Part shown: positions 29,890 through 34,710 of the stretch, piece after piece
How positions within the stretch are numbered: the stretch's first letter is position 1
How the letters are laid out: each line of letters begins with the position of its first letter
The notes under the pieces: model-generated
The model's database searches: none
Told to the model about the DNA's origin: nothing
What the model saw: the letters and a program-made list of their open reading frames with translations, nothing else
Translations under genes and position numbers: made by a program
Origin: Sorex araneus
Lineage: Eukaryota > Chordata > Mammalia > Eulipotyphla > Soricidae
NCBI RefSeq assembly: GCF_027595985.1
Contig: NC_073307.1
Coordinates: 120,321,678 to 120,385,677 of the forward strand
Reading direction: 5' to 3'
Length of the DNA: 64,000 nucleotides

Positions 29890-30150
29890 GTGATGGAATT
29901 TTCTGCAAACACTTCCCCTGTGTCCTGTCACTCTTCTTCCTGAGTTGATTGCCAGGATAGGAAACTGGTAACCCTTCCCCTCTTTTACGTGGATGGTGGA
30001 GAATTTGGGGACTTTGGCATCCACCTTGCCTATCTTTATCCAGGACTTCTTGCCAACTGCTCTCCGTTCCACTGTGAACTGTGTCACAGGGCATCTGCTG
30101 TTGTCCTTTGGGGCCTTCCACTTGACGTGCACGCAGCTACCGGAGAACAT
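29890..30150 (-). pseudogene. IGSF22: IGSF22 fibronectin-III exon remnant
   Basis: Reads SCVHVKWKAPKDNSRCPVTQ, then FTVERRAVGKKSWIKIGKVD and KVPKFSTIHVKEGKGYQFPI LAINS, a near-complete FN3 domain. After LAINS the conserved continuation shifts frame (DTGEVFAENSIT is in another frame). It is the best-preserved piece of the locus. Confidence 0.75.
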
Positions 30151-30694
30151 TCCAGAACTCCACCCAGCCCTGCGAGGGCTCAAAGGGACACACAGAAGAC
30201 AGGTTCAGACGGCGGCTTCAGAGCAAAGGATCGGGAGGGCCTTGTCCCACCTGCCCTGAGCACAACCTCTCTAGGTTCTGAGCTCTCTGGACCCCCGGCC
30301 TGCGTCCACTACTCCTCTTAGATTCTGTCCCCTGAGTCTTCTGTCTCCCAGTGCACGTATAGATTGGAGAGCTGTGGGGTTCCTCTTTGCTTGATTCCCA
30401 TCCCAGAAGACAAGCTCTTCCCCTCCTCGGAGTTTCTAGAACTCTCCTCTCTCTGGAATGACAGTTGACCTTAATTAATTACCTAACTTTACCTTGTATC
30501 ACCTATCTACTCATCCATTTTTTGGACTGAAGGGCTGTTGGGGATCCTTCACCGGTGTGTCCCCAGCATACTTAGGTATGCAGGAGAGAAAAGGCTCAAG
30601 CTCCTAAATAATTGAACCCCCAATTTTTCTGTCTCTCCACCCCTGCAAGATGATGTGTGTGATGCTAATAGTACATGTGCTCTATTTAAAAAAA

Positions 30695-31337
30695 TTTTTT
30701 TTTCTCTAAGCCTAAAGCTTTATTTTAAATAACCTCCAGTGAAAATGGAGTGGGCCAATCACACCCCTTTCCTTATTGTATCAATTAACCAAAACAGGAA
30801 AGAAAAAGCACGCCCTGGAGCCAGCCTGCCAGCCCCTTGGGAGGGGCGGAGTACTGTTGAATGGGTGGCCTTGATCTTGTCCTGGCCAGAGCATCCTCTG
30901 TGGAGCCTTGATGGTTTCATTCACAGACACGATAAGGCACTGATCTGCACCATCTCCCAAATGAAGGCTTTAGAATTGTCAGTAATGTCCTCATGGTTGA
31001 TGTCCACCCCATACCACATGCCTTCCTGGGCATGCTGAGCCCACAGCTTATGGAGGATGTTTGTGGCATCAAAACCAGCATGGTCACACAGCTGGGATGA
31101 TTTCCAAGGCACATGCTCCCATCAACAGGCTGCTGCTTTCCTGGAATTGTCCTTGAGTAATTCCGCAGGTACTTGGAGAGCGCCATCTCAATGGCTCCAC
31201 TGCCAGCCAACACCAAGTCTTTCTTGCTGGCCTCCTGATGACCATGAAGGCATCGTACAGGGGCTGCTCCCTCCCCTCCAGAACTGCTCCAGCGCCACCT
31301 CGGAGGATGATGGTACAATATTGGCCCAGAGACAGCC
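30695..31337 (-). pseudogene. CCT7: CCT7 processed pseudogene, 5'-truncated
   Basis: Minus-strand reading matches the C-terminal third of chaperonin subunit eta (CCT7): [25 protein letters not shown], then after a frameshift near 31110 [40 protein letters not shown]. It has no introns, ends with AATAAA (30719-30724 on the minus strand) and a 9-A tail, and its 5' end stops at about residue 360 beside a SINE. These are marks of LINE-mediated retroposition. CCT7 belongs to the cytosolic chaperonin ring; this copy cannot encode it. Confidence 0.9.
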
Positions 31338-31543
31338 AGTTCTTTTTTTTTTTTTTGGCTTTTGGGCCACACCTGGTGGGTGCTTAGGAGTTACTCCTGA
31401 CTGTGTGCTCAAGAATTACTCCTGGCGGTGCTCAGGAGTGATGCTGGGGATTGAACTGAGGCCACATGTGATGGATGCCCAGGTCATATGTGATGCCCAC
31501 ATGCAAGGCTAGTGCCCTGCCCACTATACTGTCGCTCCAGTCC
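31338..31543 (-). mobile_element. SOR-like SINE abutting CCT7 pseudogene
   Basis: Poly-T then GGGCCACACCTGGTGGGTGC through ACTGTCGCTCCAGTCCC. It starts where CCT7 similarity stops. Confidence 0.85.
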
Positions 31544-31671
31544 CTGGAATATGTGTGCTCTAAAGCAAGTTCCCATAGATTTAAATTTAGATCTGCAGAA
31601 AAATCTAAAGCTAGATCTTCCCATAATCTAAATTCAGACTCATTCCAAATATCATTTGTACCTACATGTAC

Positions 31672-31798
31672 AGAGTGACCCCTGTACATCGTTGGGTGTG
31701 ACCCAAAAAGCAAAAAAAAAACAACCAAAAACTTACTTTCAAAAAACTGGGGGTGGGAGGTCTTTTGGGTCCCCCCTAGGGATGCTCAGGGCTTACTC
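31672..31798 (+). repeat. Local duplicate of 32290-32413
   Basis: Carries the last ~45 bp of a SINE plus its flank ACTTACTTTCAAAAAACTGG and GATGCTCAGGGCTTACTCCA, nearly identical to the second copy 620 bp downstream. Confidence 0.85.
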
Positions 31799-31885
31799 CA
31801 TATGCCAAAAGCAGTAACAAGTCTCACAATGGAGACGTTACTGGTGCCGGCTTGAGCAAATAGATGAACAATGGGATGACCTACA
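31798..31885 (+). mobile_element. SOR-like variant 3' module
   Basis: CCATATGCCAAAAGCAGTAA then GGAGACGTTACTGGTGCC; no tRNA-related half. Confidence 0.75.
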
Positions 31886-31929
31886 TTACCATTTGCCCTC
31901 CCCTCACTCCATTAAAAAAAAAGAAAGAG

Positions 31930-32050
31930 TCCACACTCAATAGTGCTGTGGAGGGGGCAGCCAGGGCCACTCCCGGCAGTGCCAAGGGTGGGACTTTCAT
32001 TATCAGGGATTGACTCAGGGCCTTGCATGTGGTAAACATCCCTGGCTCCT
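31930..32050 (-). mobile_element. SOR-like SINE, degenerate
   Basis: CAGGGCCACTCCCGGCAGTG then CAGGGCCTTGCATGTGG. Confidence 0.4.
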
Positions 32051-32162
32051 TGGTTCATTTTATTCCCAGCTCCTATACTCCCTACTAACCTCACCTCTGT
32101 CCCTAAGTTCCATTTTTTTAACCTTATTAAAGAAAAAAACCACTTATTTTAAACCTTACTTT

Positions 32163-32337
32163 CAGGGCTGGAGTGATAGTATAGTGGGTAGGGTGTTTGC
32201 CTTGCACACAGCCGGCCCGGGTTTGATCCCAGCATCCCATACGGACCCCCGAGCATCGCCAGGCGTAATTCCTTTGTGCATGTGCCAAGAGTGACCCCTA
32301 TACATCGCCAGGTGTGACCCAAAAAGCAAAAAAAAAA
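32163..32337 (+). mobile_element. SOR-like SINE
   Basis: Full length; CTTACTTTCA on both sides. Confidence 0.93.
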
Positions 32338-33017: not shown

Positions 33018-33025
33018 ATTCTCTT

Positions 33026-33202
33026 TTTTTCTTTTTTCTTTTTGGGTCACACCGGGCGATGCACAGGGGTTACTCCTGGCTTTGCACTCAGGAATTACTC
33101 CTGGTGGTGCTCAGGGGACCATATGGGATGCTGGGAATCGAACACGGGTCGGCTGCGTGCAAGGCAAACACCCTCCTCACTGTGCTATCGCTCCAGCCCC
33201 AT
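33026..33202 (-). mobile_element. SOR-like SINE at end of IGSF22 remnant C
   Basis: Full length. Imperfect target duplication ATCCATTGCCATTCT / ATCCACCGTCATTCT lies at the very end of the Ig sequence. Confidence 0.93.
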
Positions 33203-33204
33203 CC

Positions 33205-33482
33205 ACCGTCATTCTTGATCCTGAACAGGACCACACTGCCATCCTCACACATGGAGCCTGAATGGTGAGTAGTGCCTGCTTTCCCCAGCTCCTTGCAAGG
33301 ATATGTGTTCCTTCTCTGGCACCTCCACGCCCACCTTGTACTTTGTCATTTGGGCAAGAGATTGGCCCAGAAAAGCACCTTGAGGATTGCTGTCTGACAC
33401 ACCTTCGTGGTGATGGGATGAATCTCTTCAGCAGCTTCATCTGACTCAGTGGACTTTAGGGTCCCTATTTCCCAGCGAAGGT
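33205..33482 (-). pseudogene. IGSF22: IGSF22 Ig-domain exon remnant C, several frameshifts
   Basis: Three frames each hold consecutive parts of one Ig domain: EEIHPITTKV, AILKVLFWANLLPK, then YKVGVEVPEKEHISLQGAG, then ALLTIQAPCVR and GSVVLFRIKNDGG. Reconstruction needs at least two frame changes, so it cannot be translated as it stands. Confidence 0.65.
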
Positions 33483-33489
33483 TTGAACT

Positions 33490-33682
33490 CTTTTTTTTTT
33501 TTCCCTTTTCTTCCTGGTTTCTAGGCCACACCCAGTGATGATCAGGAGTTACTGATGGCTCTGTGCCCAGGAATTACTCCTAGTGGGTGCTCGAGGGAGC
33601 ATCTGGATGCCAAGGATTGAACCCAGGTTGGCCTTGTACAAGCAAATATGTGCCTTACCTGCTGCACTGTCACTCAGGCCAC
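33490..33682 (-). mobile_element. SOR-like SINE between IGSF22 remnants
   Basis: Target duplication AAGGTTTGAACT at 33478-33489 and 33683-33694. Confidence 0.92.
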
Positions 33683-33939
33683 AAGGTTTGAACTTTCAAT
33701 ACACATGCATTCATGAGAGGCTTTCTCAAACAGGACTGTCAGGACTCGCTAATGCAGCCTTTCTGGTTTCAAAGACAGAGAGAGGAGAGTAACTGACGCG
33801 GGTCAAAGAGCTGAGTGGTGGGATAGGTACAGGTAGAGTCCACGTCCCCGGAGACTGGACGAGGAGAGGCCGTTGCTGATGGGTAATGAAAGCATCTGGG
33901 AAGGAGCTGGGGCCTTTCTAGGTAGGTTTCCCTACTCTT

Positions 33940-34110
33940 TTTTTTTTCTTTTTGGGTCACACCCAGCAATTCTCAGGGGTTACTCCTGGCTCTGCGCTCA
34001 GGAATTACTCCTGGTGGTGCTTGGGGAACCATATGGAATGCTGGGGATTGAACTAGGGTCAGCTGTGTGCAAGACAAACACCCTCCCCGCTGTACGATCA
34101 CTCCAGCCCC
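33940..34110 (-). mobile_element. SOR-like SINE inside IGSF22 remnant B
   Basis: Full length. Imperfect 16-bp target duplication at 33924-33939 and 34111-34126 (…CCC[T/C]ACTCTT). Confidence 0.92.
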
Positions 34111-34260
34111 AGATGTCCCCACTCTTGATGCAAATCATTCTGACATTGGGGCTCGTCAGCTCCTGAGTATAGTCAAAGGGTACTGTGGTGTCAGTCTTGG
34201 TCTCTGTGTCTTCCAGGGGTTCCAGGATCCGGAATGATCTGAGACTCTCAGAGTGACCTG
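34111..34260 (-). pseudogene. IGSF22: IGSF22 Ig-domain exon remnant B, split by SINE
   Basis: Reads [20 protein letters not shown] then [19 protein letters not shown], the A to C strands of an Ig domain with the core Trp apparently changed to Cys. The sequence stops at a SINE (33940-34110). Beyond it a short stretch, ETYLERPQLLPRCFHY, may be the continuation. Confidence 0.65.
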
Positions 34261-34499
34261 AGCAGAGTGATCATAAGATAGCAGGAGGCAGGTGCATCTG
34301 AGTCTGCTCTGTGCTGGCGTGGAGTCGGGAGAAATGACCTGGAGATTAGATAGCTGAGCACCCCCATCTGGCCCCATCAGCCAGTCATCACCTGGAAAGC
34401 TTCAGGACGGACAGACAGGATAGGGGATGAGAAAGGGACCCCTCTTGGAGGATGCAGCCACTGATGCCCAGGGCCCACCACACCGATTCCAGCGTTGAC

Positions 34500-34710
34500 T
34501 CTGGACAATGATGAGTCTCCCGTCCTTGTGGGGCCCTGCCCCTGGCCTCATTGGCAACTGACCCTTGTGGCTTTAGCCCATGCTCCTTGCGACCATAGTC
34601 CTCAAACATCCTGTTGGAGTCCTTGGTAAGGATGCTACGCTCCCTCTTCCAGGAGACCTCGGGTTGGGGGTTCCCCAGTACCCAAGCTCCTTGCAATGGA
34701 CACAGGATGC
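34500..34710 (-). pseudogene. IGSF22: IGSF22 Ig-domain exon remnant A
   Basis: Encodes GNPQPEVSWKRERSILTKDS then NRMFEDYGRKEH, a typical Ig C-strand (…P.V.W…) and following segment. A later piece in a different frame reads DGRLIIVQSQRW, like an Ig E-strand, indicating an indel in between. Confidence 0.65.

Follow-up and report, generated by a model that had tools for sequence, protein, structure and literature searches.

IGSF22 as a probable unitary pseudogene in a genome of the shrew Sorex araneus

Does Sorex araneus still possess IGSF22 between TMEM86A and PTPN5, where human and cattle hold it? The human gene order in the relevant passage of PMC5322952 runs TSG101, UEVLD, SPTY2D1, TMEM86A, IGSF22, PTPN5; excerpts of other papers group IGSF22, PTPN5 and TMEM86A in one locus on cattle chromosome 29 (PMC12294756), include Igsf22 in opossum data (PMC4051688) and give human IGSF22 (Q8N9C0) a length of 903 aa (PMC4607824). 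To answer this question, we analysed a window of 64,000 nucleotides (C6:120321678-120385677) in a 2.406-Gb, 65-contig genome of this animal; the window has 0 N. A first-pass annotation made from the letters of the window had described the gene as apparently dead and its neighbours as intact and clean. TMEM86A lies on the plus strand in three exons (15900-15920, 18070-18334 and 19018-19454) that give a 240-aa open frame with YhhN matches in two frames. This splice choice was picked among several, and it agrees with what we take to be the human length and sequence. On the opposite flank, the catalytic (tyrosine-phosphatase) exons of PTPN5 were recognised on the minus strand at 41988-46786. Because they form a partial coding sequence that was not put together whole, intactness is demonstrated for TMEM86A only.

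The 22.3 kb between the two genes (19600-41900) occupy the position of IGSF22 and are expected to hold it on the minus strand, and two Ig/FN3 pieces there exceed controls. Pfam and profile scans, with a MyBP-C-type gene as control, found no intact IGSF22 at this ancestral place. Its domain exons are missing or unrecognisable except for two scraps, of which no second copy was found; we therefore consider IGSF22 lost. That the gene is dead in this S. araneus genome is well supported, and the earlier claim of its death is borne out for this one genome. It is very probably a unitary pseudogene: human and cattle keep the gene at this locus, and the shrew genome has lost it.

Two domain remnants and their reading frames

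IGSF22 encodes two types of domain known from titin and MyBP-C, Ig (I-set) and FN3, and one partial domain of each type was found in the interval. The best-kept scrap of the presumed IGSF22 is an FN3 core of 64 residues at 29941-30132 on the minus strand, in a single open frame. It scored 56.7 bits in a frame-tolerant profile scan, which placed it at 29944-30126, against a maximum of 17.1 in four control scans, and its top PDB matches were FN3 domains of titin and myomesin. The second scrap, an Ig core of I-set type (20 residues at 34622-34681, minus strand; 34616-34675 in the profile scan), lies within a 120-aa open stretch (34388-34750); with 24.8 bits against a control maximum of 19.7, it is weaker than the FN3 core. 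The control scans covered the opposite strand, the reversed sequence and both strands of 19.8 kb of adjoining DNA. When the isolated pieces were submitted to Pfam, the Ig piece reached 13.9 bits with I-set, below the cut-off of 23.7, and the FN3 piece reached 22.2 bits (cut-off 39) with an FN3 model of DSCAM type and 13.1 bits (cut-off 25) with fn3. About 84 recognisable residues are left, and no complete domain. The first-pass description of a few Ig/FN3 pieces between the neighbours is correct as to the presence of such scraps and the lack of a complete gene, but only two pieces exceed the controls.

Frame disruption in these remnants had been given as a reason for calling the gene dead. We aligned them to full-length models built from a titin exon in the same genome (33 FN3 and 14 Ig domains). 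For the Ig core, said to need at least two frame changes, the best alignment covered only model positions 31-50 of 99 and contained 0 shifts and 0 stops; the frame of this core is open throughout the 120-aa stretch. The FN3 core, said to shift frame after the residues LAINS, matched positions 22-85 of 106, again with 0 shifts and 0 stops. By eye, words resembling the A and G strands of the domain sit in other frames at the FN3 ends. Against 400 randomly drawn 100-base stretches as the null, however, these ends are recognisable in no frame: the best score was 8.2 upstream (95% null, 8.7) and 6.2 downstream (95% null, 9.3). As such scores stay within those of random stretches, we dropped the claim of frame breaks at the FN3 ends. 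The frame changes described earlier are not demonstrated, although they may exist; the evidence for loss is the absence of the remaining gene, and the case is one of missing exons, the alignments of the cores themselves showing neither frameshift nor stop.

Searches of the interval and of the genome

Pfam was run at E up to 10 on six read-through translations of the interval (three frames of two overlapping stretches), all from the minus strand, which is the strand of the scraps and, we presume, of IGSF22. Matches to I-set and to fn3 numbered 0 and 0 in these translations. A single FN3-type match below threshold fell on the FN3 piece (17.6 bits, cut-off 39); the other matches were to a chaperonin family, in two translations, and otherwise to weak, unrelated families. 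In a 19.8-kb MyBP-C-type gene of the same genome, located via its THB domain and inferred to be MYBPC3, six translations at the same threshold gave ten I-set and four fn3 stretches together with one THB. This control is independent of profile training. Since the control gene is rich in domains and the two scraps alone are recognisable in the interval, we conclude that nothing resembling a 903-aa IGSF22 is to be seen there.

The frame-tolerant scan found no further Ig or FN3 piece above controls in 19600-41900, the next best scores (16.5 and 17.1) being background. The profiles were ortholog-free, and strongly divergent IGSF22 exons could escape them. The FN3 profile was seeded with the FN3 remnant itself, its own loci (L001 and L002) being excluded from the search set. 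In the MyBP-C-type control gene, six pieces of FN3 type and 11 of Ig type scored above 20 bits in the same scan, figures that are inflated because this gene belonged to the training loci. Four other stretches (33150-33600, 34080-34420, 29600-29960 and 30180-30600) were tried as further remnants in six alignments, two remnants of the first-pass annotation (A and B) being matched to its text by guess. They gave 10.7-14.6 bits with exact models that have no null of their own, shorter models reaching 14.8-19.7 on control DNA, and were rejected. SINE copies make up parts of 33.0-34.1k. A coding-like stretch at 30917-31390, considered as IGSF22, was identified as CCT7 (TCP1 eta): a processed-pseudogene piece of that gene lies within it on the minus strand, in two frames, between the two scraps. 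A SINE-like stretch adjoins the upstream end of the CCT7 piece.

The two surviving pieces also served as queries in genome searches that rank best candidates only. In DNA searches, neither the Ig remnant, of 301 bases, nor the FN3 remnant, of 271 bases, matched anything but itself. As protein, the FN3 core gave 44 rows, comprising itself, 42 on contig C12 and a single C6 row with an E value of 4.7; we take the C12 cluster, 20-35% identical to the FN3 core, for titin. The Ig piece gave three rows, namely itself and two with E values of 5.5 and 6.97. Among the best candidates for both pieces, with DNA or protein queries, there was no second IGSF22. A fifth match to THB, the MyBP-C tri-helix bundle, was seen at C12:212613914-212614006 (46.1 bits), about 85 kb away from the titin-like FN3 cluster.

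The name IGSF22, rival readings and meaning

Synteny is the chief basis for the name IGSF22, with domain type and one weak peptide resemblance in addition; the name does not come from an alignment with an IGSF22 protein. Three human IGSF22 peptides are printed in the consulted parts of PMC3969312, PMC7072325 and PMC7594087. One of them, KESAKIFYD, resembles KDSNRMFED at 34598-34624, in the same frame as the Ig piece. The score is attained by 2 of the 96,181 stop-free 9-mers of the window, KDSNRMFED included, and 0.0022 such matches are expected across the 105 remnant positions, three peptides having been tried. Of the 5,706 9-mers in a titin exon, one outscores KDSNRMFED against this peptide, and the region-wide best for it, 22, is inside the null range (null maximum 24). 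For the other two peptides, the interval held no counterpart better than shuffled DNA. We rejected the resemblance as proof of identity, given the titin 9-mer and the region-wide null; it is suggestive only and lends the name weak backing.

The same titin 9-mer, together with the titin and titin-like exons that head the PDB and genome matches of the FN3 core, would fit an origin of the scraps from another titin-like gene, IGSF22 having been cleanly deleted. Yet the scraps, while sharing the domain type of the titin and MyBP-C genes, are only 20-35% identical to titin-like exons and lie at another chromosomal place, and two distinct domain types sit where IGSF22 is expected. We hold this origin to be very improbable, and IGSF22 would be gone under it too. 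An IGSF22 that survives in shortened or strongly divergent form, with the FN3 exon and exons missed by the profiles spliced into a smaller working protein, is unlikely. The openness of the FN3 core over 64 residues, and of the stretch around the Ig piece over 120, is what such a protein would lead one to expect, but both domains are incomplete, being recognisable only over the model positions given above; the FN3 ends are unrecognisable in any frame, and the other domain pieces are within controls. A wrong or incomplete assembly at this locus, with an intact gene in the animal itself, is likewise very improbable. The evidence comes from one assembly only; however, the window is free of N, the neighbouring TMEM86A is clean, and base errors could not delete whole domain exons.

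Loss of IGSF22 in place thus remains our preferred reading. IGSF22 would have been released from constraint, most of its exons would then have been deleted or have decayed past recognition, and SINEs and the CCT7 retrocopy would have been inserted among the remains. No function is put forward for the two scraps. It is highly doubtful that the loss dates from an early stage of shrew evolution, or embraces all Eulipotyphla, and went together with a change in the tissue in which IGSF22 acted, the FN3 exon staying open because a new, shorter transcript retains it.

Compared with the IGSF22 locus of human and cattle, the shrew interval has the same neighbours, TMEM86A and PTPN5, and its Ig and FN3 pieces are of titin/MyBP-C type. 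One printed human peptide has a diverged likeness in the Ig piece; the human protein, in contrast, has 903 aa and the shrew about 84 recognisable residues without a complete domain. In mammalian unitary pseudogenes, a single-copy gene has decayed in place. The shrew gene has probably likewise decayed between its neighbours, with no second copy found, but this case has no disabling mutation pinned to an exon and rests on missing exons. Shrew IGSF22 is very probably one more example of a familiar process, ordinary gene loss. No report of it was found among the papers listed by searches on shrew gene loss and on IGSF22, supplementary tables being outside the scope of those searches, and the main text of the shrew-genome paper PMC11544316 holds no word starting with 'IGSF'. 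Genome-wide gene-loss screens may already contain the case. Mouse was considered as a second loss, Igsf22 being missing from a table in PMC11329421; this absence is uninformative because the table covers brain-expressed genes only.

In the human study PMC5727231, 16 genes, IGSF22 being one of them, show a potential knockout configuration in one or more people, doubtful phase being assumed. As IGSF22 appears among these human potential knockouts, a strong phenotype is not expected, and its loss may be tolerated. In the present case, a shrew has probably lost a little-studied gene of titin/MyBP-C-like type; were the loss common to shrews, these animals would offer a natural knockout from which the role of IGSF22 might be learned.

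Repeats in the window

The SINE primer of Soricidae, whose sequence was taken from a passage of PMC8608897, matches 21 places in the window at up to 2 mismatches (0.00 expected), and a Soricidae SINE probe matches 21 places at up to 3 mismatches (0.03 expected). Both results fit the assignment of the DNA to a shrew in the first-pass annotation. ARAGORN made four tRNA-Ala calls (3931-4003, 5945-6017, 26504-26576 and 33123-33195). They look like shrew SINE heads and not like tRNA genes, since two of the four are within SINE repeat families and the other two are beside SINE probe matches. A two-copy repeat of 94 bases, 83% alike and without resemblance to the SINE, was seen at 24601-24694 and 31787-31880.
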